A stretch of 15,767 nt of DNA from Candidatus Poribacteria bacterium (GCA_014730235.1 WJIO01000366.1:1-15767), one strand, 5' to 3'. Shown: positions 195 through 15,580, numbered from the stretch's first letter. Translations and numbers: made by a program. The notes: generated from the letters alone by a model not told the origin.

Positions 195-626
195 TTAGAT
201 CCTATATACCTCCTCTCCACTCAGGATTTTTAAATTACTACCTTTGAGTATTTCAATAGCTTTGTTTGGATCCTCAAACCTGAAGATCATAATGGCATTT
301 TGCCCTGAGCTCTGGACAAAAGCATACATATATTCAACATCCATTTCCGCTTCCTTCAGTGGCGCAAGTATCCCGGCCAAACCACCGGGTTTGTCAGGAA
401 CTTCAACAGCAACCACGTCAGTTTCACTAAGGGTATAACCTGCGGTTTTCAAAACATCGGAAGCCTTATGGAAATCACTTACTATAACTCGGAGTATACC
501 AAAATCCGCTGTATCCGCCAACGATAAAGCACGAATATTTATGTTGTTGTCGGCCAGAATTTTGGTCACTTCCGCCAATCTGCCGGATTTGTTTTCCAGA
601 AATATGGAAATCTGTTTAACAGTCAC
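195..626 (-). CDS. Tandem ACT-domain amino-acid-binding protein
   Basis: This 143-residue protein consists of two ACT domains, about residues 4-65 and 70-140, and has no catalytic domain. The ACT signatures are visible as [19 protein letters not shown] at the N-terminus and [17 protein letters not shown] in the second half, each a strand followed by the Gly-rich loop that binds amino acids. It starts with GTG at 626, preceded by a near-perfect AGGAGGTGAT that overlaps the end of the paaK-like gene 16 bp upstream, so the two are probably translationally coupled. Stand-alone double-ACT proteins of this type often follow CoA ligase and indolepyruvate oxidoreductase genes. I infer that it senses an amino acid and modulates the pathway, but its binding partner and ligand are not shown by the sequence. 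Confidence 0.88.
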
Positions 627-642
627 AGGATCACCTCCTGAC

Positions 643-1947
643 TTATTCTTTTTCTTTTCTCAGGTCTCTGACTCGCTTCGCTTTACCTTCGCTTCTTGCG
701 ATAGTTTTTGGCTCAACAAGCTGAACCTTTACAGAAATACCTAAAAGGCTTTCGATCTCGTCCTGTATTTTACCCTGTATAGCCTCTAGTTTTCTGACTT
801 CGTCGGAGAATATCTGTTCGTTTACCTCAACACGTAAAAGTAAATCATCCAGATGGCCCACGCGGTCAACCACGATCTCATAATGAGGCTCTACCTCTTC
901 TACGGCAACAAGCACGCTTTCAATCTGAGATGGGAAGACGTTTACACCGCGAATGATAAGCATGTCGTCAGTCCTGCCGGTGACACGTTTCATCCTTACT
1001 ATGGTTCTTCCGCATTTGCACTTCTCCGGATGCAGTGAAGTTATGTCTTTTGTGCGGAATCTGATAACCGGGAAAGCCTCTTTAGTCAAAGATGTTAATA
1101 CCAGTTCGCCGGTTTCACCATAAGGCAGCGGTTCGCCTGTTTCAGGATTAATGATCTCGGCCACGAAGTGGTCTTCAAATATATGCAGACCGTTCTTTTC
1201 TTCGCATTCAATGGAAACCCCGGGACCTATTACCTCTGTCAGACCATAAATATCCCTTGCATCAATGTTAAGCTTTTCCTCTATCTCGTCCCGCATGCTG
1301 TCAGACCAGGGCTCCGCGCCCAGTATACCTACACGCAGGGGGAGCTCTTTTATGTCCACACCCATTTCAGCAGCTACTTCAGCGATATAAAGCACGTATG
1401 AAGGCGTAGCTGTTAGTATGTTTGAACCGAAGTCCTGCATTATCATGACCTGACGCTTAGTGTTTCCACCGGAAGTAGGAACAACAGTTGCACCCAGCTT
1501 TTCTGCTCCATAGTGAACACCAAGACCGCCGGTAAAGAGACCATAACCGTAGCTGTTCTGGATTATATCATCTCTGGTAGCTGTTGCACAAACCAGTGTC
1601 CGGGCCATCAACTCAGCCCACATATCAATGTCTTTTCTGGTATATCCTGCAACTACAGGTTTACCTGTTGTGCCTGAAGATGAATGAATCCTTACTATGT
1701 CGCTCATGGGTTCAGCAAATAGATCGAAAGGATAGGATTCCCTAAGGTCGGCTTTTGTAATAAAGGGTAGCTTTGATATATCTTTGATAGTTCTAATATC
1801 GGTAGGTTTAACTCCGGCCTTATCGAAGGATTTTTTATAAAAAGGAATTTTGTCGTATACCTTGCGGATAACTGCTTGGAGTCTAGTCAACTGTAATTCT
1901 TCCAGGTCGTTTCTGGACATACTCTCATATTTTTCATTCCATATCAT
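643..1947 (-). CDS. paaK: Phenylacetate-CoA ligase family protein (AMP-forming)
   Basis: This enzyme of 434 residues joins an aryl acid such as phenylacetate to CoA at the cost of ATP, through an acyl-AMP. The AMP-binding P-loop SSSGTTGKP lies at about residues 89-97, followed by an [11 protein letters not shown] motif. The C-terminal lid has HPEKCKCGR and [20 protein letters not shown], both typical of PaaK. Length is normal for the family. An in-frame ATG at 1953 abuts the AGGAGG, so the ATG at 1947, six bases further on and beginning [10 protein letters not shown], is the better start. It lies 30 bp after iorB and 16 bp before the ACT gene. Beside IorAB it could activate the free aryl acid or, in reverse, act on the acyl-CoA made by IorAB. 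The family is clear; the acid used (phenyl-, indole- or hydroxyphenylacetate) is inferred. Confidence 0.9.
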
Positions 1948-1977
1948 CAGCATCCTCCTATTGTTTTCAGGAATTCT

Positions 1978-2559
1978 TTATTTTATAATATCCAATCCCA
2001 TCTGGAAAGACTTCATATTTGCCTCAATAGCTCGTTCCGGAACTCTCATTCTGATTACGTCTATCCAGATATCCGCGGGAATATTGAGCAATTTGGACGC
2101 TGCACCCAGCATGGCCGTATTGGCAGTTCTAATGTTACCTGATTCCTTTGCAATATTCAGGGCATCTATAAAAATTACCGATTTGTATTTACTGGTTAGC
2201 TTATCTTCAATATTTTCCGGATATTTTGCAGTCCCATTTATGACGGTGCTGGGATTAATCTGTTGACGGTTAACGATTATATTGCCATCTTCTTTCACAA
2301 AATCAGCCATTCGCAAAGCTTCTAGTTTTTCAAAGGCCAATAACAGATCACATTCACCCTTTATAACCAGTGGTGAATATATCTTCTCACCAAAGCGAAT
2401 GTGGCTGTTTACGCTACCTCCTCGCTGAGACATACCGTGAATTTCGCTCTTCTTTACATCATGACCGGCCTGAGCTGCCGCCTCAGATATTATCTCGCTG
2501 GCTGTAAGTATTCCCTGTCCGCCAACACCGGTAAGTATTAAATTTGTTACTTTATCCAA
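1978..2559 (-). CDS. iorB: Indolepyruvate ferredoxin oxidoreductase, beta subunit
   Basis: This 193-residue protein is the small (POR gamma-like) subunit of the TPP enzyme that oxidatively decarboxylates arylpyruvates to arylacetyl-CoA and reduces ferredoxin. The family marks are GVGGQGI at residues 11-17 and IHGMSQRGGSVNSHIRFG at about 40-57, plus a late PADIWIDVIRMRVPERAIEAN segment. It starts with TTG at 2559, with AAGGAG eight bases upstream; no better ATG is available. It works with IorA, encoded upstream on the same strand, but the two are separated by 245 bp holding an inverted-repeat element and a palindrome, whereas iorA and iorB are usually closely spaced. Downstream it leads into the paaK-like gene after 30 bp. 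Confidence 0.93.
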   Translation of the reverse strand: MDKVTNLILTGVGGQGILTASEIISEAAAQAGHDVKKSEIHGMSQRGGSVNSHIRFGEKIYSPLVIKGECDLLLAFEKLEALRMADFVKEDGNIIVNRQQINPSTVINGTAKYPENIEDKLTSKYKSVIFIDALNIAKESGNIRTANTAMLGAASKLLNIPADIWIDVIRMRVPERAIEANMKSFQMGLDIIK

Positions 2560-2640
2560 GAGTCTGACTCCTTAAAACAATATATAAAATTATGGTTCTT
2601 CCGGGTTTAGTATAGTTACAATTGAAAATTCCCTCAGCTT

Positions 2641-2710
2641 GTCATTCTTGCGAAAGCAGGTATCCTGTCTTTATTCGGATCTACTGGATACCTGCTTTCG
2701 CAGGAATGAC
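2641..2710. repeat. 70-bp inverted-repeat element (MITE-like), copy 1
   Basis: Arms at 2641-2665 and 2686-2710 match in 24 of 25 positions when one is reversed, with a 20-base spacer. Outer ends read GTCATTC and GAATGAC. Each arm itself holds a short palindromic unit of the form ATTC(C/T)TGC-N4-GCAGG(A/T)AT, reminiscent of the dRS3-type ATTCCC-N8-GGGAAT units of Neisseria; this is a resemblance, not an identification. A related copy lies at 8740-8814. It carries no gene. Because it lies between iorA and iorB it would form a strong hairpin in an iorAB transcript. Confidence 0.85.
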
Positions 2711-2771
2711 AGCGTAAAGAAGTTTCTTATCTTTACCACACTGAATCCGGAAGAGCCAAAATTATTTTGTA

Positions 2772-2793
2772 TTGACATGGCATGCCGTGTCAA
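2772..2793. promoter_or_regulatory. Palindrome with TTGACA on both strands, possible promoter/operator
   Basis: TTGACATGG and CCGTGTCAA flank a CATG centre, giving a near-perfect palindrome with one wobble pair, 12 bp past the iorA stop. Each arm carries TTGACA. On the plus strand it is followed 16 bases later by TATATT (2794-2799), one base off the -10 consensus and pointing antisense into iorA. On the minus strand TTGACA is followed 16 bases later by TACAAA, four of six, pointing towards iorB. It could be a separate iorB promoter with an operator, an antisense promoter, or merely a post-iorA hairpin. No T-run follows, so it is not a classical terminator. Confidence 0.4.
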
Positions 2794-2804
2794 TATATTT
2801 ATAT

Positions 2805-4559
2805 CTAAACGCTTATGCTTATAATTGCCTTTGATTTGCAGACATCGGCACAAACCATACATCCACTGCATAGCATAGAATCAATTTTAACTTTTTTATT
2901 ATCAGATGAAATGACGGATATAGCCGGACAGCCTAAACGCAGACAAAGCTGGCATCCTATACAGGAGGCCAGATCAACTTCGGCGATTTGAGTTCTCTTT
3001 TCCCGTCTTAGTAGCAGACACGGCTGATTTGTAACTATAACGGACAGTTCATCTGAATTTACAGCTTTATCTATGGCTTTATCCAGAGCTTCCAGATCGT
3101 AGGGATTAACTACTTCGGTATTTTCCACCCCCAGGGCTTTCGCAAGTTTTATAAAGTCAGTTCGCTTGGTTTCTTCGCCCATCAATGTTACGCCTGTTCC
3201 TGGATGCTCTTGCCTTCCGGTCATGGCTGTTGTATCGTTATCCAGTATTATTACAGTTCCTCTGGATTTGTTGTAAACCATATCCACAAGACCTGTTATA
3301 CCTGAATGAACAAAAGTAGAATCACCAATTACAGCTACCACGTTGTCACTTCTGCCAGTGGCTTTTTCGATACCCAAAGCCGATCCAACGCTGGCTCCCA
3401 TACACACGCATGTATCCATTGTTTCCAGGGGTGGTAAAACACCGAGAGTATAACATCCAATATCACCGGTTACAGTAAGCTTTTTCCTTTTAAGGGTGTA
3501 AAAGACGCTTCTGTGAGGACAACCAGCGCACATGGCCGGAGGACGGGCTGGTAGGTTCATCTTTTCTGATGGAGTGGGATGTATTATCTTCATATCTTCC
3601 ACTTTATTCTGGAAAAATTCTGCCAGATAGTCGGGTGAAAGTTCCCCGGTTAGTTTACCTACCCCTTGAACGGATATACCCATCTGCAATATCTGATCTT
3701 CAAGGAAAGGATCTAGCTCTTCTACTACAAAAAGTTTTTCAACCTTGCCAGCAAAATCCCTTATCATATCCTTTGGAATAGGATTAGTCATTCCCAGTTT
3801 TAATACAGAAGCTTCAGGTAGCACTTCTTGGCAGTATTGATAAGATATACCACTGGTTATAATGCCTATTTTGGGGTTTTTAATTTCCATCTTCTGGATG
3901 GGTATTTCTTCTGAAAATTCTTTCAGCTTCTTAAGACGGTCCTCTACAACCACATGACGCAGACGACCATGAGCAGGTATCATAACAAATTTTCTGGGTT
4001 CTTTTACAAATTCCAACGGTATTTCTGATTCAACTCTATCTTCCATTTCCACCAGGGACTTGGAATGAGCTATACGCGTTGTGATCCTGACTATTATAGG
4101 GGTATCATACTGTTCGCTTATACTGAAACCCATTTTCACAAATTCTTTGGCTTCTTGACTGTCGCTGGGTTCCAGCATAGGGATTTTTGCAAATTTAGCG
4201 TAATTTCGGTTATCCTGTTCATTTTGTGAACTGTGCATGCCGGGATCACCAGCACAAAGTAGCACAAAACCGCCTTTTACACCAGTGTAAGACATAGTAA
4301 ACAATGGATCAGCAGCTACGTTTACTCCTACATGCTTCATAGTCACCAAAACTCTGGCGCCTGCAAAGGATGCACCTACACCGACTTCAAAGGCTACCTT
4401 TTCATTTGGTGACCATTCGGCGTAAATTTCGGGATATTCTGCTGCTACGGTTTCAAGTATTTCTGTGCTAGGGGTTCCGGGATATGCACTGGCTACAATC
4501 ACGCCGCTTTCATAAGCCCCGCGAGCAACGGCTTCGTTACCTGAAAGGAGTTTCTTCAT
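2805..4559 (-). CDS. iorA: Indolepyruvate ferredoxin oxidoreductase, alpha subunit
   Basis: This is the 584-residue catalytic subunit of IorAB, which converts an arylpyruvate plus CoA to arylacetyl-CoA and CO2 while reducing ferredoxin. The N-terminal pyrimidine domain has SAYPGTPSTEI at about 24-34. The TPP domain has CAGCPHR (344-350), GDIGCYTLG (365-373), GDSTFVHSG (412-420) and NDTTAMTGRQEHPG (441-454). The C-terminus carries a ferredoxin-like domain with two [4Fe-4S] motifs: C533, C536, C539, C544 followed by Pro, and C564, C567, C570, C574. Length and domain order match the family. The ATG at 4559 has AAGGA about ten bases upstream and AT-rich DNA before it, so it is probably first in the operon. 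Iron-sulfur clusters and ferredoxin use point to an anaerobic cytoplasmic pathway. The exact 2-oxoacid is inferred from family knowledge. Confidence 0.95.
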   Translation of the reverse strand: MKKLLSGNEAVARGAYESGVIVASAYPGTPSTEILETVAAEYPEIYAEWSPNEKVAFEVGVGASFAGARVLVTMKHVGVNVAADPLFTMSYTGVKGGFVLLCAGDPGMHSSQNEQDNRNYAKFAKIPMLEPSDSQEAKEFVKMGFSISEQYDTPIIVRITTRIAHSKSLVEMEDRVESEIPLEFVKEPRKFVMIPAHGRLRHVVVEDRLKKLKEFSEEIPIQKMEIKNPKIGIITSGISYQYCQEVLPEASVLKLGMTNPIPKDMIRDFAGKVEKLFVVEELDPFLEDQILQMGISVQGVGKLTGELSPDYLAEFFQNKVEDMKIIHPTPSEKMNLPARPPAMCAGCPHRSVFYTLKRKKLTVTGDIGCYTLGVLPPLETMDTCVCMGASVGSALGIEKATGRSDNVVAVIGDSTFVHSGITGLVDMVYNKSRGTVIILDNDTTAMTGRQEHPGTGVTLMGEETKRTDFIKLAKALGVENTEVVNPYDLEALDKAIDKAVNSDELSVIVTNQPCLLLRREKRTQIAEVDLASCIGCQLCLRLGCPAISVISSDNKKVKIDSMLCSGCMVCADVCKSKAIISISV

Positions 4560-6607: not shown

Positions 6608-8629
6608 TTACATACTTCCGAAGATGTCTGGTTTTCCAATAGCGACAGCTTTGACAACCGATGAAAGAAGAAGATCTTTTCCCTTTTGGTCATGACCTTC
6701 CGCCGCTGTCGCTTTTTGATCAGCGGCTTCTATTTTTATTTCCAGGCTTTCACCTGCGCCAGCGCGAATAGCATTTTCCTTTGCTATTTCGAGAGCGGTT
6801 TTTTCTGCATAGGATTTCGCCTCGTTTAACCTTAGAAAGTCCGTTTTTTCCTCAGGAGTATGGACTGTATAACCAGCAATTCCAGCGGCTGTGTATACAG
6901 GTTCAATTAATATTTCCACCGTTTCTATTATATTTCCTGTTATTGCACCTACTGCGTTGGCTACTTCTGCGTGTTCAGGGATTATTAACTGAGCTTTGAG
7001 TATTTCTGCAACCTGGGGAAAATAGGCCTGTACCGGAGCGCCAATAGCAATTATAGGTAGTCTAACGGATATATCAAACTTAATTTCAGGGATGAGGTTA
7101 CGTCCCATCATCTTCTCTATAAAAAGAGTACATGTTTTGCAGTTGTAGAAATCTGAATTGTCAAGTTCCTCAGATAAAAACTTGGATAGTATTTCGGTAG
7201 ATAATTTTTCCTTTACCTTTTTCTTTACCTGACTTATGCAATCGACTTTTTTAATATTGGCATGAGAAGCGTATATTTTCACAGCAATTTCTGCCGCTTC
7301 TGTGTTCCATATCCTGTATGTTCCCTCTGCATGGAGTATGTCTGTAGGGGTTAAGCCGATTCGACTAATAATACCCATTTCTTCTAGTCTACCTGTGTTA
7401 AGCAAGGCAGGATGTAGCAGTTTTAGCCTTTTAGATAGAAGCCGGGCTGATAAAGGCCCATTGTTTAACTCAGAACATATCATACGTTCATTTTCATCCA
7501 GAAAGCCGTTATTTGCAAACTTTACCCTGATAAAGAAATCCGTAGGAGGGAGCATATTACTACGCCATTCGGCATCGCGTAGTTCCCTTAATTCATTTAT
7601 AATTTCAGCATGCTCTGATGCAGCCAGGGATAAAGGAATAACTCTCTGAGGATTTAGTGTAATCCGATTCCACTTATCAATAGTTATATGACTATCACCA
7701 CCGAGTCCTGATGTCTGGATATCCGCTGCCCGGACACTGGTTCGCCATTTACCAACAGATGCGCCGTCCATATTTATCTGTGGAATTCCGTTCCTCAATA
7801 TGGCAATATCGGTAGTAGTGCCTCCCATATCAGCTACAACACCAGTTTCTGTACCAGAGAGAAACTTAACACCCATTATACTGGCGGCAGGGCCTGATAA
7901 TATGGTTTCGATGGGTCTCTCCATAGCAACTTTATCACTTACAAAATGACCATCACCTTTTACAACCATGAGAGGGGCAGATATGTTTCTTTCTTCCAGG
8001 GCTTTTTTAATTGCATCAATAAGTTCTTTTATAACAGGTATTAACCTAGCGTTAAAAGCTGCCGTTATGGCTCTTTTTATAGAGTTTAACCTGCTGGTGA
8101 GTTCGTGTCCGCAAACTACAGGTAAATTTGTTAAATCCTTTATCATCTTGCTGGCTATTATTTCGTGTTTGGGATTTCTTACGCCGCCATATGCAGATAC
8201 ACCATAAGCATCAACTATTTCGCGAGTTTCCAGTATAGCTTTTTTCAGATCATCTATGTCAAGCGGCATTATTTCTCTGCCGGATATCTCGTGACCACCG
8301 TTTACCAGACGTATATCCCTTATAGGGAAATCTGTTCCAAAACCATATTTGTAAAGAGTTTTTTCGTCATAACCTATTCCCAACAAGCAAGCTCTGGCGC
8401 CTTTACCCTCAACAATAGAGTTTGTGGCTAGAGTTGTAGATACAGAAACAAGTTTAATATCATGGGGATAAAGTTTGCCCAGATTGTCTATTGAATTTGC
8501 TATTCCTATGGATAAATCCTGTCTTGTTGTTAGGGCCTTTGCTTTTGCTAAAACCTGGCCAGAATCAAAGTTTATTATTACTGAATCGGTATAAGTTCCA
8601 CCTGTATCAACGCCTAATCCTAAATTCAT
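6608..8629 (-). CDS. Hydantoinase/oxoprolinase family protein (HyuA-like), stand-alone
   Basis: This 673-residue protein belongs to the ATP-dependent HyuA/5-oxoprolinase group, cytoplasmic enzymes with an ASKHA (actin-like) nucleotide fold that open cyclic amides or carboxylate ketones. The N-terminal phosphate loop is GVDTGGTYTDSVI from residue 6, and the Hydant_A core has VKGDGHF (223-229), ETILSGPAASIMG (241-253), DMGGTTTDIA (267-276) and GLGGDS (308-313). A late ANAVGAITGNI segment completes the nucleotide site. The length is close to that of typical HyuA subunits. The usual HyuB partner is absent: tRNA-Gly lies downstream and the upstream neighbour diverges. The ATG at 8629 follows a GGAG by eight bases. 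The family call is firm; the substrate cannot be told. Confidence 0.9.
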   Translation of the reverse strand: MNLGLGVDTGGTYTDSVIINFDSGQVLAKAKALTTRQDLSIGIANSIDNLGKLYPHDIKLVSVSTTLATNSIVEGKGARACLLGIGYDEKTLYKYGFGTDFPIRDIRLVNGGHEISGREIMPLDIDDLKKAILETREIVDAYGVSAYGGVRNPKHEIIASKMIKDLTNLPVVCGHELTSRLNSIKRAITAAFNARLIPVIKELIDAIKKALEERNISAPLMVVKGDGHFVSDKVAMERPIETILSGPAASIMGVKFLSGTETGVVADMGGTTTDIAILRNGIPQINMDGASVGKWRTSVRAADIQTSGLGGDSHITIDKWNRITLNPQRVIPLSLAASEHAEIINELRELRDAEWRSNMLPPTDFFIRVKFANNGFLDENERMICSELNNGPLSARLLSKRLKLLHPALLNTGRLEEMGIISRIGLTPTDILHAEGTYRIWNTEAAEIAVKIYASHANIKKVDCISQVKKKVKEKLSTEILSKFLSEELDNSDFYNCKTCTLFIEKMMGRNLIPEIKFDISVRLPIIAIGAPVQAYFPQVAEILKAQLIIPEHAEVANAVGAITGNIIETVEILIEPVYTAAGIAGYTVHTPEEKTDFLRLNEAKSYAEKTALEIAKENAIRAGAGESLEIKIEAADQKATAAEGHDQKGKDLLLSSVVKAVAIGKPDIFGSM

Positions 8630-8672: not shown

Positions 8673-8845
8673 GTAATCGTTAAAAAATGGAAAATGTGTT
8701 TAGAAAATACCTTTATAATTATGGTAAATTACAAAATTCGTCATTCCTGCGAAGGCAGGAATCCAGAAAAAACACTATATTGGGAGACTGGATTTCTGCC
8801 TTCGCAGGAATGACAACTAAATTATATCCATTTTCTAACGATTAC
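8673..8845. repeat. Nested inverted-repeat element, outer arms
   Basis: Outer arms at 8673-8691 and 8827-8845 (core TAATCGTTA-A/G-AAAATGGA) match in 18 of 19 positions when one is reversed. They enclose the related inner inverted repeat at 8740-8814. The whole 173-bp unit could fold as a two-tier hairpin or be a MITE-like insertion that landed inside an older palindrome. The outer arms are not present around copy 1 at 2641-2710, so they may belong to the site or to a second element. No transposase is encoded. Confidence 0.7.
8740..8814. repeat. 75-bp inverted-repeat element (MITE-like), copy 2
   Basis: Arms at 8740-8766 and 8788-8814 match in 26 of 27 positions when one is reversed, with a 21-base spacer. 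Ends read GTCATTC and GAATGAC as in copy 1 (2641-2710), and both arms carry the same short unit ATTCCTGC-N4-GCAGGAAT or a one-base variant. The two copies differ in spacer sequence and in a few arm positions (CGAAGG against CGAAAG), with compensating changes in both arms, so the pairing is kept. Confidence 0.87.
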
Positions 8846-9019: not shown

Positions 9020-9047
9020 TTGATTATCCTAATGATTTATGTATAAT
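9020..9047 (+). promoter_or_regulatory. Sigma-70-type promoter of the discoidin-permease-GH95 genes
   Basis: TTGATT (9020-9025) and a perfect TATAAT (9042-9047) are 16 bases apart. Transcription would start near 9054, giving a leader of about 80 bases that contains a weak hairpin at 9067-9082, ahead of AGGAGG at 9121-9126. It probably drives the secreted-protein gene and, through it, the permease and GH95 genes. Confidence 0.65.
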
Positions 9048-9132: not shown

Positions 9133-9783
9133 ATGAGGTTTAGGAGCCTTAAATGCGAATCATTAATTTTATCTTTGGCTGCTTTGTTTATTTTTACATT
9201 CTTAGTTAATGCACAGGAAGATGGAGAAAATCTTATATCCATAGAAAACGGTGGCTCTCTGGTATTATCCGATGGTGCTCTACCAGATTGGCCTGATGAA
9301 GACTGGAATGGGGCTATTGATGGGGATTTAGAGTCCTGGTCAGGTACAGTGACTACTTTTTTAGTTCCAGAGGGTGAAGAAAATCCCTGGGCTATATTTG
9401 CTTTTAATAATGAATCAACTCAGGTGATTGGTTCCGTGGGCTTTTTTATGTTGCCTAAAGCCGTTATAGATGATAACTGCAAAACACGATGCGGGAAAGA
9501 TTTTCAGGTTTCGGTTTCCGCCACCGGCACTGATGAAAATGATTTTGAGGTTGTGTTGGAAGATACTCTGGAACTCGATTTAAACCTTCCCTTTGAAGAT
9601 CAGGAATGGATTGAGTTTGAATTTGATGCAGTAAAAGCAAAGTATATAAAACTGGATTTTCTTTCCAACTATGGGGATGCAACATATGTAACTCTGGGAG
9701 AATTTGCTGTATACGGCGGCGTTTTGGCTGTTGAACCGACAGCTAAAGTTGCCAGTACATGGGGTAAAATCAAATGTAAGTGA
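9133..9783 (+). CDS. Secreted discoidin-like (F5/8 type C) domain protein
   Basis: This 216-residue protein starts with a Sec signal peptide (basic MRFRSLK, hydrophobic core to about residue 24, likely cut after VNA at 27). The mature part has the pattern of a galactose-binding-like jelly roll: NGAIDGDLESWSGT near the start, KDFQVSVSATGTDENDFEVV in the middle, and a KYIKLDFLSNYG then LGEFAVYGG ending. Such domains bind sugars or other surfaces without cutting them. A CKTRC motif could form a disulfide. After the domain comes a short tail AVEPTAKVASTWGKIKCK. The ATG at 9133 follows AGGAGG by six bases; a longer upstream reading lacks a ribosome site. It leads the permease and GH95 genes, so I infer a glycan-binding role at the cell surface, without proof of the ligand. 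Confidence 0.75.
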   Translation: MRFRSLKCESLILSLAALFIFTFLVNAQEDGENLISIENGGSLVLSDGALPDWPDEDWNGAIDGDLESWSGTVTTFLVPEGEENPWAIFAFNNESTQVIGSVGFFMLPKAVIDDNCKTRCGKDFQVSVSATGTDENDFEVVLEDTLELDLNLPFEDQEWIEFEFDAVKAKYIKLDFLSNYGDATYVTLGEFAVYGGVLAVEPTAKVASTWGKIKCK

Positions 9784-9794
9784 TAATCGGTTAA

Positions 9795-9836
9795 TATATT
9801 TCCCTTTCACAGTTAAAACTGTGAAAGGGAAATATA
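9795..9836 (+). promoter_or_regulatory. Perfect 20-bp hairpin before the permease ribosome site
   Basis: TATATTTCCCTTTCACAGTT (9795-9814) is repeated in exact reverse complement at 9817-9836 around AA. It starts 12 bases after the stop of the secreted-protein gene and ends four bases before the GGAGG of the TTG-started permease gene. No U-run follows in either direction, so it is not a standard terminator. It may stabilise the upstream message, lower expression of the distal genes, or be a protein-binding palindrome. Confidence 0.7.
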
Positions 9837-9851
9837 GACTGGAGGCAGCGT

Positions 9852-11753
9852 TTGAAATCAAAGGGTGTCACCTGGAAAGCTATCCTTATAGGTTTATTGC
9901 TCATACCCATTAATTCTTTTTGGATCATACGCAGTGAAACAGAAGGTATGATATTTTACTCAACTACTTCATCTCTTTTCTGCAACGTCATTTTTATTTT
10001 ATTCATCCTTACCTTACTGAGTGTATTTATAAAGCTTTTCTATTCTTCCACTGCCTTTTCTCAAGGTGAACTGCTGGTTATATATACAATATTATCTATT
10101 GCGGCTGCAATTTCAGGTGAAAGTATCGGACAGCAGCTAATAAGACATTTTGCCACACCTGTATGGTCTGCCACTCCTGAAAACGAATGGACAAACCTGT
10201 TTTACAGGTATTTACCCCAATGGTCAATAATTGATAACAAAAATATCCTCGAGGCCTTTTTTAGAGGTAACAACGAGGATACGTCTTTATTGTATACACC
10301 ACTACACTTGAAAGCATGGTTATTTCCCCTTCTGGTCTGGTGTGGTTTTGTCTTTGTGCTTGTTTTCGTTATGATATGTATAAATGTAATTATTCGGAAA
10401 CAATGGATCGAAAACGAAAAGTTGAGTTATCCTGTAATCCAGTTACCTCTGGCCATGACGGAACAAAGGATATTTTTGAAGAACAAAAACATGTGGTTGG
10501 GTTTTGGCATCGGGGCTGGGATCACCCTTTTAAACGGTGCTCATTACATTATACCTGCTGTGCCGGGAGTAAAGAACATATATGACATCAGCGGTCTTTT
10601 TGTGTCCAAACCATGGAATTCAGCGACTCCTATAGTTATCGCATTTTACCCCTCCGCTATTGGTCTTGCCTATTTCATGCCTATGGATCTGGCCTTTTCC
10701 ACATGGTTTTTCTTTTTGTTCTGGAAAGCTCAGATTATCTTTGGTTCAGCTTTTGGAATGCACAGCTTACCCGAATTTCCATATTCCAAATGGCAGCAAA
10801 CTGGCGGATATCTTGCCATAGGGATACTGGCGCTGTGGACGAGTAGACGACATATTTTTAAGGTATTTAAACAGGCATGGAAAAAAACTGATAGTAAAAA
10901 TGAAATTCGAGAACCTATGAAATACCATACAGCTATATTCGGTTTATGTTCAGGCTTTGCTGTTATTGTATTATTCGGAATATGGTTGGGAATGACAGCA
11001 TGGCTGGCTTTTTGTTTCTTTGGTATATACTTTATTTTGTCTATAGCTGTAACCCGTATGCGGGCCGAACTGGGTCCTCTGGTGCATGAGCTATATTACA
11101 GCAACGCTGGTCAGATTATAACGGCGATTACAGGCACACGCAGGATTTCACCCCACAGCCTGACAGCCATGTCTGCTTTTTGGTGGCTTACCCGGAGTCA
11201 GAACTCCAATGTTATGCCTCATCAACTGGAGGGTTTGAAGCTGTCCGAGCGTGCAGGTATTAACACGCGTTCTTTATGGATTTACATGGTTATAGCATCG
11301 GTTCTGGGTATTTTCTTCTGTTCTTACGCTTTGCTGGATAAGGCCTATCGTTATGGAACTTCTACAGGCTTTGCTTACCAAAGTTATTCCAGGCTTCATG
11401 GATGGTTAACTGTACCCAATCTGGTGGATGTATCTTCGGTGATTTTCATGGTTGCCGGTTTCCTGTTTACTATTTTTCTGTTATTCATGAAAAGGTGTTT
11501 TCTGTGGTGGTCATTTCATCCCCTGGGTTATGCGGTTACTCAGGGAGATTGGGCCATTACGTTTATATGGTTTTCTATATTTTTAAGCTGGTTTATCAAA
11601 TCCATCATACTTAAATACGGTGGGCTTAAAATCCATCGTCGGGCCACGCCTATATTTCTCGGCCTGATACTGGGTGACTTTGTAATAGGTGCATCATGGG
11701 GGTTGTTTGGTCTAATGACAGGAATAAGAACTTACCCATTTAAAAATTGGTAA
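9852..11753 (+). CDS. OPT-like multi-pass permease, DUF6785/DUF6784 type
   Basis: This 633-residue protein is almost wholly membrane-embedded, with about 12-14 hydrophobic helices, for example residues 10-27, the VFVLVFVMICINVII segment and the closing IFLGLILGDFVIGASWGLFG. Family marks are WIENEKLSYPVIQLPLAM after the early helices, PMDLAFSTWFFFLFWKAQ in the centre and VTRMRAELGPLVHE later. I recognise these as the DUF6785/DUF6784 group, relatives of oligopeptide transporters (OPT) found in Armatimonadota, Planctomycetes and candidate phyla. It starts with TTG at 9852, six bases after a strong GGAGG; no ATG fits. It lies between a secreted binding protein and a cytoplasmic GH95 enzyme, with the latter 21 bp downstream, so I infer that it imports the glycoside they use. 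Transport substrates of the group are, to my knowledge, unproven. Confidence 0.75.
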   Translation: MKSKGVTWKAILIGLLLIPINSFWIIRSETEGMIFYSTTSSLFCNVIFILFILTLLSVFIKLFYSSTAFSQGELLVIYTILSIAAAISGESIGQQLIRHFATPVWSATPENEWTNLFYRYLPQWSIIDNKNILEAFFRGNNEDTSLLYTPLHLKAWLFPLLVWCGFVFVLVFVMICINVIIRKQWIENEKLSYPVIQLPLAMTEQRIFLKNKNMWLGFGIGAGITLLNGAHYIIPAVPGVKNIYDISGLFVSKPWNSATPIVIAFYPSAIGLAYFMPMDLAFSTWFFFLFWKAQIIFGSAFGMHSLPEFPYSKWQQTGGYLAIGILALWTSRRHIFKVFKQAWKKTDSKNEIREPMKYHTAIFGLCSGFAVIVLFGIWLGMTAWLAFCFFGIYFILSIAVTRMRAELGPLVHELYYSNAGQIITAITGTRRISPHSLTAMSAFWWLTRSQNSNVMPHQLEGLKLSERAGINTRSLWIYMVIASVLGIFFCSYALLDKAYRYGTSTGFAYQSYSRLHGWLTVPNLVDVSSVIFMVAGFLFTIFLLFMKRCFLWWSFHPLGYAVTQGDWAITFIWFSIFLSWFIKSIILKYGGLKIHRRATPIFLGLILGDFVIGASWGLFGLMTGIRTYPFKNW

Positions 11754-11774
11754 AAATTACTCATGGAGGTAAAA

Positions 11775-14159
11775 ATGTCTAATAAAAAACATAGGATGAT
11801 AATGCGCTCCCCGGCCACCCGATGGCAGGATGCTTCCGCTACTGGCAATGGCTCTGTGGGAGCAATGATGTACGGCCAAATACGTACTGATGTGATCCTG
11901 ATAAACCACGAAGCTCTTTACTATCCCAGAGATCATAGAAAACTGCTGGATGTTTCGGATAAGCTACCCGAACTTAGAAATCTGATTGATCAGGGTAAAT
12001 ACCAGGAAGCCGCAAAGCTTATGCCCAGAGTCCATGCAGAACGGGGAGGGATGCAGGAGGGTTCTACTAGCGATTATACCGACCCATACCAGCCTTTCTG
12101 CGATATATCCCTGAGAACATCAACGGATGGGCCTTTCAGTAAATACTGTCGCGGGGTGGATTTTGAAACTGGTCGGGTGTGGACGGAATGGTCGGACAAT
12201 ACAGGCCATCTAACCCGGGATTTATTTGTGTCCAGGGCAAATGACACCATATTTATGCGTATAAAGGGAGACAAGCCGGGAATGGTATCTCATGCTCTCC
12301 GGATTTGTCAGTACGATGCCTCTGGTCAGCACGAAGGTGTATTCACTTCCAAAGGTCTGAAACCTGCTGAATACAGCACAAATGCAGAGGATAACGGCTT
12401 TTTGGTTTTTACCGGCAGATATCAAGATAAATATGATTTTGGCGCGGTTGGTAAAGTTACCATTATAAATGGTAAGATGCGCTCAGATCGGGGCGAAATT
12501 GTTGTTGAGGGTGCAGATGAAGTGCTGATGAAGGTAAAGTTGTTTATTCGGGAAAATCCGGAGGAAGCTGTACCGGGTCTGAAAGAAGAACTGGAAACTG
12601 ATGAGACAAATTTTGATGAAGCATTGGCAAAACATACGGCTTTACATGGTGAAATATTCAATCGCATGAAACTTAATTTATGTGAACCTTCTGATATGAC
12701 AAACGAGGAGTTGCTTCTGGCGTCTTATGGTGAGGAAATACCAACAGCACTTATCCAGAATATATTTGACTACGGTCGCTACCTGCTGATATGCTCCAGT
12801 AGTTCCAGCGGCTGGCCCGCCAACTTACAGGGAATCTGGAATGGTGATTATATGCCGGCATGGAATTCGGATTTCCACACTGACGAAAATATCCAGATGA
12901 ATTACTGGCAGGCTTTACCGGGCAATATGGCCGATTTGACCCTTTGTTATTTCGATTACTTTGAACGATATTTGAATGATTACAGGGATAACGCCAGAAA
13001 GCTCTATGGGGCCCGGGGTATTCTCGTGCCAATTGCTCAGACTACTCATGGCATTGCTTTTCCGACCATATGGACAAACTGGATTTCAGCCGCAGGATGG
13101 CTGGGGCAGTTATTCTATGATTATTTCCTTTTCACCGGTGACAGGGATTTTTTGGCTAAACGGGCTGTTCCCTGGTTAAAGGAAACGGCTTTGTTTTACG
13201 AGGATTATTTATACGAAGGTGAGGACGGTAAAATGATATTCTCACCTTCTCTTTCTCCGGAAAATGTTCCCTCCGGTCAAGGGATGGGGCTTTTAACTAT
13301 CAACGCCACCATGGATGTGGCCGTCTGCCGGGAAGTATTAAACAATCTCTGCGAAGCATGTGAGTTATTGAATATTGAACAGGACGGGGTAAGCCGATGG
13401 CGCGGTATATTGAGCAAGCTTCCTGAATACGAAGTAAACGAAGACGGTGCGATAAGAGAATGGTTATATCCCGGGTTCAAGGACAATTACCATCACCGAC
13501 ATCAGTCTCACATATATCCTATATTTCCAGGCCTTGAAGTGACAGAGGAAACAAATCCTGAAATATACGAAGCCTGCAAAATAGCTGTGGAAAAACGTCT
13601 GGTGATTGGATTAACCAGCCAGAGCGGATGGTCTACGGCTCATATGGCCAACATATATGCTCGATTGGGAGATGGCAACCGGGCTTTGGAATGTCTGGAA
13701 ATACTGAGCAAAAGCAGCACCGGGCCTAACCTTTTTACATATCACAACGACTGGCGGAATATGGGATTAAGCCTTTACAGTAAAAATCCACCCTTCCAGA
13801 TCGACGCAAATTTTGGTATGGCTGCGGCTATAATTGAGATGCTGGTATTCAGCAAGCCCGGTATCATCAAGCTTCTTCCGGCTGTACCGGACAAATGGAA
13901 TTCCGGAAGTATAAAAGGTGTGGCATGCCGGGGTGGAGTTTTGGTTGATATGGAATGGAATTTCTATAAGGGCTTTGTCAAAGCCGGTTTTATCAGCAAA
14001 AGAGATCAGGATATACTGGTGAAACTACCCGGGAAGATAAAACAAACAACCGTAATACCCTCAGAAACAAAAATAGTGAAATCTGATTTGGGTGATTCCT
14101 ATATTTTTATTAAAATTAACCAAAATAAGAAAGTAAATATTGACTTTGAAATAGAATAA
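11775..14159 (+). CDS. Glycoside hydrolase family 95 protein (alpha-L-fucosidase-like)
   Basis: This 794-residue protein has the GH95 layout: an N-terminal beta-sandwich opening with RSPATRWQDASATGNGSVGAMMYG, an alpha/alpha-barrel with WPANLQGIWNGDYMPAWNSD and ENIQMNYWQALPGNM, and a C-terminal beta domain. GH95 enzymes invert alpha-L-fucosides and in some cases alpha-L-galactosides. Against the Bifidobacterium AfcA residues recalled from the literature, the acid maps to E496 (SPSLSPEN), the base-assisting Asp to D677 (FQIDANFG), and the two catalytic Asn to D370 and N372, so one Asn seems replaced by Asp. There is no signal peptide, so the enzyme is cytoplasmic. The ATG at 11775 follows GGAGG by five bases; the upstream ATG at 11763 overlaps that site. 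It lies just after the permease gene, which presumably delivers its substrate. The family is sure, the sugar is not. Confidence 0.87.
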   Translation: MSNKKHRMIMRSPATRWQDASATGNGSVGAMMYGQIRTDVILINHEALYYPRDHRKLLDVSDKLPELRNLIDQGKYQEAAKLMPRVHAERGGMQEGSTSDYTDPYQPFCDISLRTSTDGPFSKYCRGVDFETGRVWTEWSDNTGHLTRDLFVSRANDTIFMRIKGDKPGMVSHALRICQYDASGQHEGVFTSKGLKPAEYSTNAEDNGFLVFTGRYQDKYDFGAVGKVTIINGKMRSDRGEIVVEGADEVLMKVKLFIRENPEEAVPGLKEELETDETNFDEALAKHTALHGEIFNRMKLNLCEPSDMTNEELLLASYGEEIPTALIQNIFDYGRYLLICSSSSSGWPANLQGIWNGDYMPAWNSDFHTDENIQMNYWQALPGNMADLTLCYFDYFERYLNDYRDNARKLYGARGILVPIAQTTHGIAFPTIWTNWISAAGWLGQLFYDYFLFTGDRDFLAKRAVPWLKETALFYEDYLYEGEDGKMIFSPSLSPENVPSGQGMGLLTINATMDVAVCREVLNNLCEACELLNIEQDGVSRWRGILSKLPEYEVNEDGAIREWLYPGFKDNYHHRHQSHIYPIFPGLEVTEETNPEIYEACKIAVEKRLVIGLTSQSGWSTAHMANIYARLGDGNRALECLEILSKSSTGPNLFTYHNDWRNMGLSLYSKNPPFQIDANFGMAAAIIEMLVFSKPGIIKLLPAVPDKWNSGSIKGVACRGGVLVDMEWNFYKGFVKAGFISKRDQDILVKLPGKIKQTTVIPSETKIVKSDLGDSYIFIKINQNKKVNIDFEIE

Positions 14160-14208: not shown

Positions 14209-15399
14209 TTACTGAGAATGTAATTCATCCCTCAGGAATCTTATGGCCTCTTCGAAAGCCTTAAAATCGCTTTCGTCGGCAAGAAATTCTTCTACGCTGA
14301 AGTCGGGCCATCTGGTATAATCTTCTTTTTGTTGTTGAAGTATCTTTATACCCCGTAGTTTTTCCAAGAATCTTGGCAGAATTTCTTGGTAAACTTGTTC
14401 TTCCTGCCATTCAGAAAAGTTAAACATTATCTTACCGTTTGCGTCTACAATAAACACTGTAAGACCATCTCCAGTAAGTATAAAGTTAAAAGCCCCAGCT
14501 CCGCCTGATCCCCACCATATTATATCATCAGCCGTTTCTACTGATAGTTGGTATAATTGCTTTATCTGTTTTACGGCGTTTTCGCTCAAATTTTCCTTGC
14601 ACTTATTGAAAAATAGTTCTTCCTTCTCTTCGTCTTTTTCCAGGGGTTTGGCCGGTTGAGCAATGGTAGGTTCATTGCTTCTTTCTCCCAATTCTTCTAC
14701 AACAGCATATCTCTGATTTTCTTTGTTTGAGAATGATCTATATTTGTTTTTTGCACTTTGCTTTAGATCAAATACAATAAGCCGGGGAACCACTATGTCA
14801 ATACCTTCATCAGAATAGTTTCTGATTTCCAGGGCATAAGTCTCAAAGGAAAAAGGCCCCCGGGCGTTAAGGAATTTTATTGTACGTCTTAATTCATTGT
14901 TTAGTCGGTTGATAGTGATTATTAAACGAAAGTTTCCGCGTCCTAGGGTAGTGTTCAGGTTTTTTACAAAATCTTCTGGATCCCAACTTTCGGAATCTAC
15001 TTTTTCTTCCATAATTTCCTGTAGATGTTTACCCTGGTTTTCCAGAAATATGGCATCAAATTCTTCATATGACATCTCCCACAAAACCGCGCCGTATTCT
15101 AAAACTCGGCCCATAATCTCCCTTCGGGTAGAAGAATCCTTTGGCATTTTACATTCTATTATTGATATTCCGCCTTTATCATCAACTCCTATAAGTCCGG
15201 TGCTGTCTTCTGAACCATTTGCTGATGGTGCTTTTATGCAAATTTTTATATTTGCTTCACCATCATCTGAGCCATCAATGGATAAAAGTTCAGGTATTTG
15301 ATATATCAGATCTCTTACAGAGCTTTCATCCTGCTGTGTTTCACTATCTGGTATCCTTCTCCATTCGCTATCTTTTCCTTTTCTTACAGCTATTTTCAT
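14209..15399 (-). CDS. PD-(D/E)XK nuclease-like protein (DUF91/NucS-related)
   Basis: This 396-residue protein has a nuclease core in its first third. E25 lies in a DESSVRDLIYQIPELL helix, D73 in GLIGVDDKGG, and E82-C-K84 in ISIIECKMP, followed by a helix EIMGRVLEYGAVLW. That is the E...D...ExK pattern of PD-(D/E)XK proteins such as NucS and DUF91, where the last helix usually carries Q..EY; here Arg takes the place of Gln. The middle is charged and likely flexible. The C-terminus (IIWWGSGGAGAFNFILTGDG and LTVFIVDANGKIMFNF) looks like a separate small beta domain. There is no methylase, helicase or other defence gene beside it. The ATG at 15399 follows GGAAGGA by a normal gap. A DNA-cleaving role in repair or defence is inferred; it is not shown. 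Confidence 0.7.
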   Translation of the reverse strand: MKIAVRKGKDSEWRRIPDSETQQDESSVRDLIYQIPELLSIDGSDDGEANIKICIKAPSANGSEDSTGLIGVDDKGGISIIECKMPKDSSTRREIMGRVLEYGAVLWEMSYEEFDAIFLENQGKHLQEIMEEKVDSESWDPEDFVKNLNTTLGRGNFRLIITINRLNNELRRTIKFLNARGPFSFETYALEIRNYSDEGIDIVVPRLIVFDLKQSAKNKYRSFSNKENQRYAVVEELGERSNEPTIAQPAKPLEKDEEKEELFFNKCKENLSENAVKQIKQLYQLSVETADDIIWWGSGGAGAFNFILTGDGLTVFIVDANGKIMFNFSEWQEEQVYQEILPRFLEKLRGIKILQQQKEDYTRWPDFSVEEFLADESDFKAFEEAIRFLRDELHSQ

Positions 15400-15539: not shown

Positions 15540-15580
15540 GATATTATGGGGCAGATTGTAACAATCTGCCCCATAATATC
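15540..15580 (-). terminator. Long palindromic hairpin, probable terminator of the right-edge gene
   Basis: A 19-base arm containing GGGGCAGATTG (15540-15558) and its exact reverse complement (15562-15580) enclose TAA. It starts 32 bases past the stop of the minus-strand gene at the right edge and is followed on that strand by AATCCTTTTACC, a modest U-run. Position and stem strength suit a terminator; the plus strand lacks any T-run after it. Confidence 0.6.

Follow-up and report, generated by a model that had tools for sequence, protein, structure and literature searches.

A predicted OPT-fold permease of the expanded DUF6785/DUF6784 family encoded beside a putative cytoplasmic GH95 enzyme in Candidatus Poribacteria

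We analyzed a stretch of 15,767 nucleotides (hereafter the window), which is contig C310 of a Candidatus Poribacteria genome of 5.53 Mb in 451 contigs. Gene calls and Pfam searches placed three co-directional genes on the + strand, at the coordinates given for them in the initial annotation (Table 1). Gene 2 starts with a TTG codon with GGAGG upstream, and gene 3 has an alternative start, a second ATG at 11775 with a better GGAGG than the first ATG. Gene 2 follows gene 1 after a gap of 69 bp and gene 3 follows gene 2 after only 10 bp, and closeness of the latter kind normally implies co-transcription. Genes 1–3 may be co-transcribed in the source genome, and the spacing is compatible with this, but a predicted hairpin lies between genes 1 and 2. 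In the main genes of the window, the Pfam scan detected neither SusC/SusD nor an ABC transporter. The gene set at the start of the window is one of anaerobic aromatic amino acid degradation.

Table 1. Positions of genes and sequence features in the window
Feature	Position	Strand	Description
Oxidoreductase gene set	195-4559	-	Indolepyruvate ferredoxin oxidoreductase alpha (TIGR03336) and likely beta subunit; also PaaK-type phenylacetate-CoA ligase and small ACT-like protein
Imperfect inverted repeat	2588-2763		81-nt arms; between two 2-oxoacid oxidoreductase genes
Hydantoinase/oxoprolinase-A-like gene	6608-8629	-	673 aa; Pfam and NCBIfam models cover the first ~330 residues only
Palindrome	8740-8814		GTCATTCCTGCGAAGGCAGGAATCCAG-type; intergenic
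Candidate promoter	9020-9047	+	Sigma-70-like, TTGATT-16-TATAAT; highest score of the + strand sites ahead of gene 1
Gene 1	9133-9783	+	Secreted 216 aa galactose-binding-like protein (Sad1_UNC / weak F5_F8_type_C)
Inverted repeat	9795-9836	.	Perfect, 20 bp, spacer of 2 nt; in the gap after gene 1
Gene 2	9852-11753	+	633 aa DUF6785+DUF6784 polytopic permease, predicted OPT/YSL fold (YS1-like)
Gene 3	11763-14159	+	798 aa GH95 enzyme without signal peptide
Unassigned gene	14209-15399	-	396 aa; no Pfam or NCBIfam match; GGISIIECKMPKD motif recalls PD-(D/E)XK nucleases (by eye only)
Second palindrome	15540-15580		Perfect, 20 bp; intergenic

Sigma-70-like sites were no commoner than in shuffled sequence (21 compared to 16.4 ± 4.3), so the promoter candidate upstream of gene 1 is suggestive only, and the single promoter initially proposed for all three genes is therefore an inference. 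The inverted repeat between genes 1 and 2 was analyzed as RNA, where 81 nt folded with a free energy of -33.2 kcal/mol (z -7.1). A U tract was absent, and the terminator scan did not report the repeat. It was present as a single copy in the source genome, and a dispersed repeat was rejected on this basis. The hairpin could separate or modulate the expression of genes 1 and 2.

The N-terminus encoded by gene 1 has a Sec-type signal peptide, MRFRSLKCESLILSLAALFIFTFLVNAQ, with cleavage before E. The protein had been described as a secreted discoidin protein; secretion was supported, but the discoidin assignment was not, as F5_F8_type_C (PF00754) reached 16.4 bits against a curated cut-off of 28.2, whereas Sad1_UNC passed with 28.3 bits against a cut-off of 22. 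Thus, 'galactose-binding-like' is a safer label than 'discoidin', and from its sequence the protein is more safely treated as a member of the galactose-binding-like superfamily only. The product would be a small secreted beta-sandwich protein. Its sole relative in 84 Poribacteria genomes was a 56% identical orthologue in G004, on a contig that contained no permease and encoded pyruvate dehydrogenase E2 nearby.

Gene 3 encodes the N-terminal (PF14498), (alpha/alpha)6 catalytic (PF22124) and C-terminal (PF21307) domains of a GH95 enzyme, all above the Pfam cut-off and with an E-value of 3.5e-115 for the catalytic domain. This three-domain build is shared with AfcA (2EAB), FucOB (7zo0), BH0842 (2rdy) and BACOVA_03438 (4ufc). 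The closest solved structures were BH0842, the alpha-L-fucosidase 8zbv and the L-galactosidase BACOVA_03438, and residues were assigned by alignment with these three and from published assignments (PMC10154630, PMC4491172). E500 is at the position of the general acid Glu (AfcA E566), and N376 and D681, equivalent to AfcA Asn423 and Asp766, are both kept. H372 is a His at the fucosidase-specificity position, as in fucosidases. In contrast to AfcA, which has Asn421, gene 3 has D374, and an Asp is also found there in 8zbv. The specificity position is a Thr in the L-galactosidase BACOVA_03438 and a His in the fucosidase AfcA, and the authors who compared both enzymes termed this determinant not definitive (PMC4491172). 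H372 would favour fucose within that limit, and the enzyme looks catalytically competent. BACOVA_03438 has a signal peptide (PMC10154630), whereas the N-terminal check of gene 3 revealed no hydrophobic N-terminus, i.e. no signal peptide, in agreement with the intracellular location given in the initial annotation. Gene 3 is thus predicted to encode a cytoplasmic inverting GH95 enzyme of the fucosidase type, which would trim a small fucosylated compound already present in the cytoplasm.

The missing signal peptide had also been taken to mean that an intact glycoside enters through the adjacent permease. However, of 16 further GH95 proteins from Poribacteria, none had an obvious signal peptide, as judged by N-terminal hydropathy only. 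A cytoplasmic location thus seems to be usual for GH95 in Poribacteria and does not itself implicate the permease, and the argument was further weakened by the finding that only 1 of the 16 other GH95 genes has a permease as its direct neighbour. Gene 3 was 54% identical to the GH95 of G011, which lies on a contig without a permease, and 26–39% identical to the remaining Poribacteria GH95s. As a separate observation, tandem runs of four distant GH95-like genes encoding ~800 aa each were present at G012:C122:13330-21934 and G013:C39:23042-32203.

Matches to DUF6785 (2.3e-149) and DUF6784 (3.5e-32) together spanned the full length of the gene 2 protein, and a sequence search of the PDB with either the protein or the family alignment returned no real relative. 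An AF2 model built with 53 homologues had a pLDDT of 90.5 and a pTM of 0.92; a model from the single sequence was useless (pLDDT 43.5). When the model was searched against the PDB with Foldseek, YS1 was the only strong match (E 4.9e-9, TM 0.69–0.72), and VIA-align superimposed 543 residues on YS1 with a Z of 25.7 and an rmsd of 3.7 Å, compared to a Z of 5.0 for the next entry. The fold of barley YS1 (PDB 7wst/7wsr), which belongs to the YSL branch of the OPT superfamily, is thereby shared over the whole chain (543 of ~600 residues), and both are single-polypeptide, all-helical polytopic permeases. Gene 2 differs in that it is bacterial, only 12% identical to YS1 and has dozens of paralogues per genome. 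The family also has conserved motifs of its own, RKQWIENEKL..YPIIQLP, RMRAELGPP and HPMPxQLExFKLAER, and its invariant acidic residues include E189 and E406. The residues for proton coupling in YS1 are Asp446, Asp490 and Asp494.

The gene 2 protein had no match to Pfam OPT (PF03169) at E<=0.1, and none of the DUF6785 copies in the source genome matched at E<=0.001. This would fit an alternative in which DUF6785/DUF6784 is an unrelated polytopic family, for example MFS- or APC-like, with a superficial likeness to OPT. However, the best MFS or APC match among the folds listed was the one with a Z of 5.0, and sister members of the family exceed the OPT cut-off, so that this alternative is essentially refuted. 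Across the phylum, the OPT profile had matches in 50 of 84 Poribacteria genomes, and in 10 of these a match exceeded the curated cut-off. All 30 loci that were fetched from these matches encode full-length DUF6785 members (690–860 bits with the A4 alignment profile). Gene 2 has no OPT match of its own while sister proteins score above the cut-off, so it is assigned to the superfamily by its fold and by its link to the rest of the family. On the strength of the fold model and the sister-protein matches, we place DUF6785/DUF6784 in the OPT superfamily as a divergent branch, and the description of gene 2 as an OPT-like permease was upheld. Barley YS1 is a proton-coupled, elevator-like symporter that imports Fe(III)-deoxymugineic acid together with protons (PMC9691689). 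Gene 2 would accordingly encode a secondary transporter of the inner membrane that has a YSL-like fold and belongs to the OPT superfamily. By analogy with YS1, it is most likely an ion (proton)-coupled elevator symporter that imports one small polar organic solute, with coupling, direction and substrate all inferred.

The source genome contains 42 copies of the DUF6785/DUF6784 family, and the family was present in 84 of 84 Poribacteria genomes, with 8 to 91 first-look candidates per genome and with 42 and ~29 copies in the two genomes that were fully scored. Most paralogues in the source genome were 31–48% identical to gene 2, the nearest at 48%. The closest named relatives of the gene 2 permease were from Candidatus Poribacteria MAGs, and the nearest ones belonged to other genera, with 63–64% identity in G014, G001 and G025 and 69% identity over 294 residues in L170. 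Because these relatives were found in other genera and not in the same genome, the paralogues represent old subfamilies and not recent duplicates. Such old, divergent paralogues, present in dozens per genome, probably differ in substrate. Relatives of the family were also found in Hydrogenedentota, Armatimonadota and Desantisbacteria. Among 5.39 million papers searched, none mentions DUF6785 or DUF6784, and our literature searches found nothing relevant on OPT transporters in Poribacteria. One DUF6785 orthologue group of 18 loci (L175, L181, L190 and others) showed conserved synteny, with dnaN divergent upstream and with genes for an ABC ATPase, an ABC-2 membrane protein, ABC_transp_aux (GldG-like), DUF4340 and a SIMPL protein downstream.

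The gene neighbourhoods of orthologues were then compared. None of the gene 2 orthologues in G001, G025 and the partial L170 had a GH95 alongside, and the G014 genome had no GH95 at E<=1e-30, although some orthologue contigs were short (G014 3 kb, L170 5.4 kb) and distant neighbours could be missed. Instead, the gene upstream of the permease in G001 encodes an outer-membrane FadL/TodX-like protein, a convergent fragment of the enolase superfamily (MR_MLE_C) lies close by in G025, and L170 adjoins a DegT/DnrJ-type aminotransferase. Within 8 kb of the 16 other Poribacteria GH95 genes we observed 2 permeases compared to 1.34 expected, and a phylum-wide linkage between GH95 and DUF6785 was therefore rejected, with proximity at chance.

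The initial annotation had proposed that a lack of glycoside hydrolase enrichment beside DUF6785 homologues would speak against a module. Thus, 30 close co-directional neighbours of permeases in the source genome, outside the window, were compared to 20 matched control genes, and no enrichment was found in this small sample: glycoside hydrolase-like genes made up 3 of 30 permease neighbours (GH67-like, GH51-like and apiosidase-like) and 2 of 20 controls (GH78-like and GH51-like). Genes that we classified as broadly carbohydrate-related numbered 13/30 and 8/20, respectively. Given the small samples, a weak association restricted to some permease subfamilies is possible. The neighbours of paralogues were mixed, with housekeeping genes (SelA, Era, NAD synthase, ComEC) and sugar-related genes alike. 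Gfo/Idh/MocA genes within 1.5 kb of permeases were not significantly enriched (5 compared to 2.1 expected, P 0.066).

Secreted proteins of the LamG_3 or F5/8 type were found within 1.5 kb of source-genome permeases 9 times, including the window gene, compared to 2.0 expected (P 3e-4 in a Poisson test that ignores clustering; three of the nine share one locus and two share another). In the complete genome G081, scored for LamG only, there were 0 LamG_3 proteins near permeases compared to 1.3 expected. With a modest signal in the source genome that was absent in G081, we do not claim a systematic partnership between LamG/discoidin proteins and permeases, and LamG/F5-8-type proteins beside permeases are a lead only. 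LamG_3 domains numbered ~90–98 per genome in G000 and G081, which are from different families, mostly in single-domain proteins of ~250–300 aa.

Taken together, each of the three genes has orthologues in different contexts and GH95-permease proximity is at chance, and the functional three-gene glycan module put forward in the initial annotation was not borne out. Like PULs of the SusCD type and ABC-type glycan loci, the trio combines a glycoside hydrolase with a neighbouring transporter and a secreted protein of the binding type. It differs from them by having no regulator and, in the main window genes scanned, neither SusC/SusD nor an ABC transporter, and by a gene set that is not conserved between genomes. 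We consider it likely, with a probability of roughly 75%, that an OPT/YSL-type permease, an independent cytoplasmic GH95 of the fucosidase type and a secreted protein were joined by lineage-specific shuffling and form no conserved system. Genes 1–3 would be independently distributed and brought side by side, and gene 2 would not be specifically a glycan transporter. The short gap between genes 2 and 3, the LamG/F5-8 enrichment, the short orthologue contigs and the small control (30 compared to 20 genes) all count against this explanation.

The same tight, co-directional arrangement could instead reflect a young but genuine module, in which a small glycoside, fucosylated (or L-galactosylated), enters intact through the permease, the cytoplasmic GH95 removes its sugar and the gene 1 protein captures the ligand outside. 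A GH95 with its catalytic residues and no signal peptide, the modest enrichment of lectin-type proteins beside source-genome permeases, and other paralogues that adjoin GH67-like, GH51-like and apiosidase-like genes, a sulfatase and sugar aldolases would all agree with it. We nevertheless find it unlikely, as the linkage was absent in all three orthologue sets, glycoside hydrolase neighbours were no more frequent than in controls, the hairpin separates genes 1 and 2, the lectin enrichment was not replicated in G081, and the OPT substrates in the papers that we found (metal-chelates, peptides, glutathione and folate) are not sugars. A permease that carries such a classical substrate, for example a short peptide, a metal-chelate or an amino-acid- or folate-like compound, with no link to the GH95, seems quite possible, if short of an even chance. 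The full-length YS1-like fold and the OPT profile matches argue for it, as do the many paralogues that adjoin non-carbohydrate genes (methyltransferases in addition to SelA, Era and NAD synthase) and the aminotransferase beside the 69% identical relative. On the other hand, ~40% of the close neighbours were carbohydrate-related, though the genome background was equally so, the MR_MLE_C fragment near the G025 orthologue would fit sugar acids, and no peptidase or siderophore gene was linked among the neighbours scanned. It is also conceivable, though improbable in our view, that the whole phylum takes up organic solutes through an arsenal of dozens of single-polypeptide OPT-fold permeases and that gene 2 is among those which bring in small glycosides or sugar derivatives intact, to be hydrolysed in the cytoplasm. 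If true, such a branch of sugar carriers would stand apart from the OPTs that have been described, whose substrates are metal-chelates, peptides and folate.

Under the explanation that we prefer, lineage-specific shuffling, the trio cautions against reading a system into operon-like spacing seen in a single genome. The novelty is in the OPT-fold assignment and in the expansion of an uncharacterised family, and not in the trio. With the OPT/YSL assignment, two domains of 'unknown function' become a transporter family that is open to testing and has a known structural template, and the phylum-wide expansion raises the question of what chemistry in these uncultured bacteria calls for dozens of permeases of this kind.
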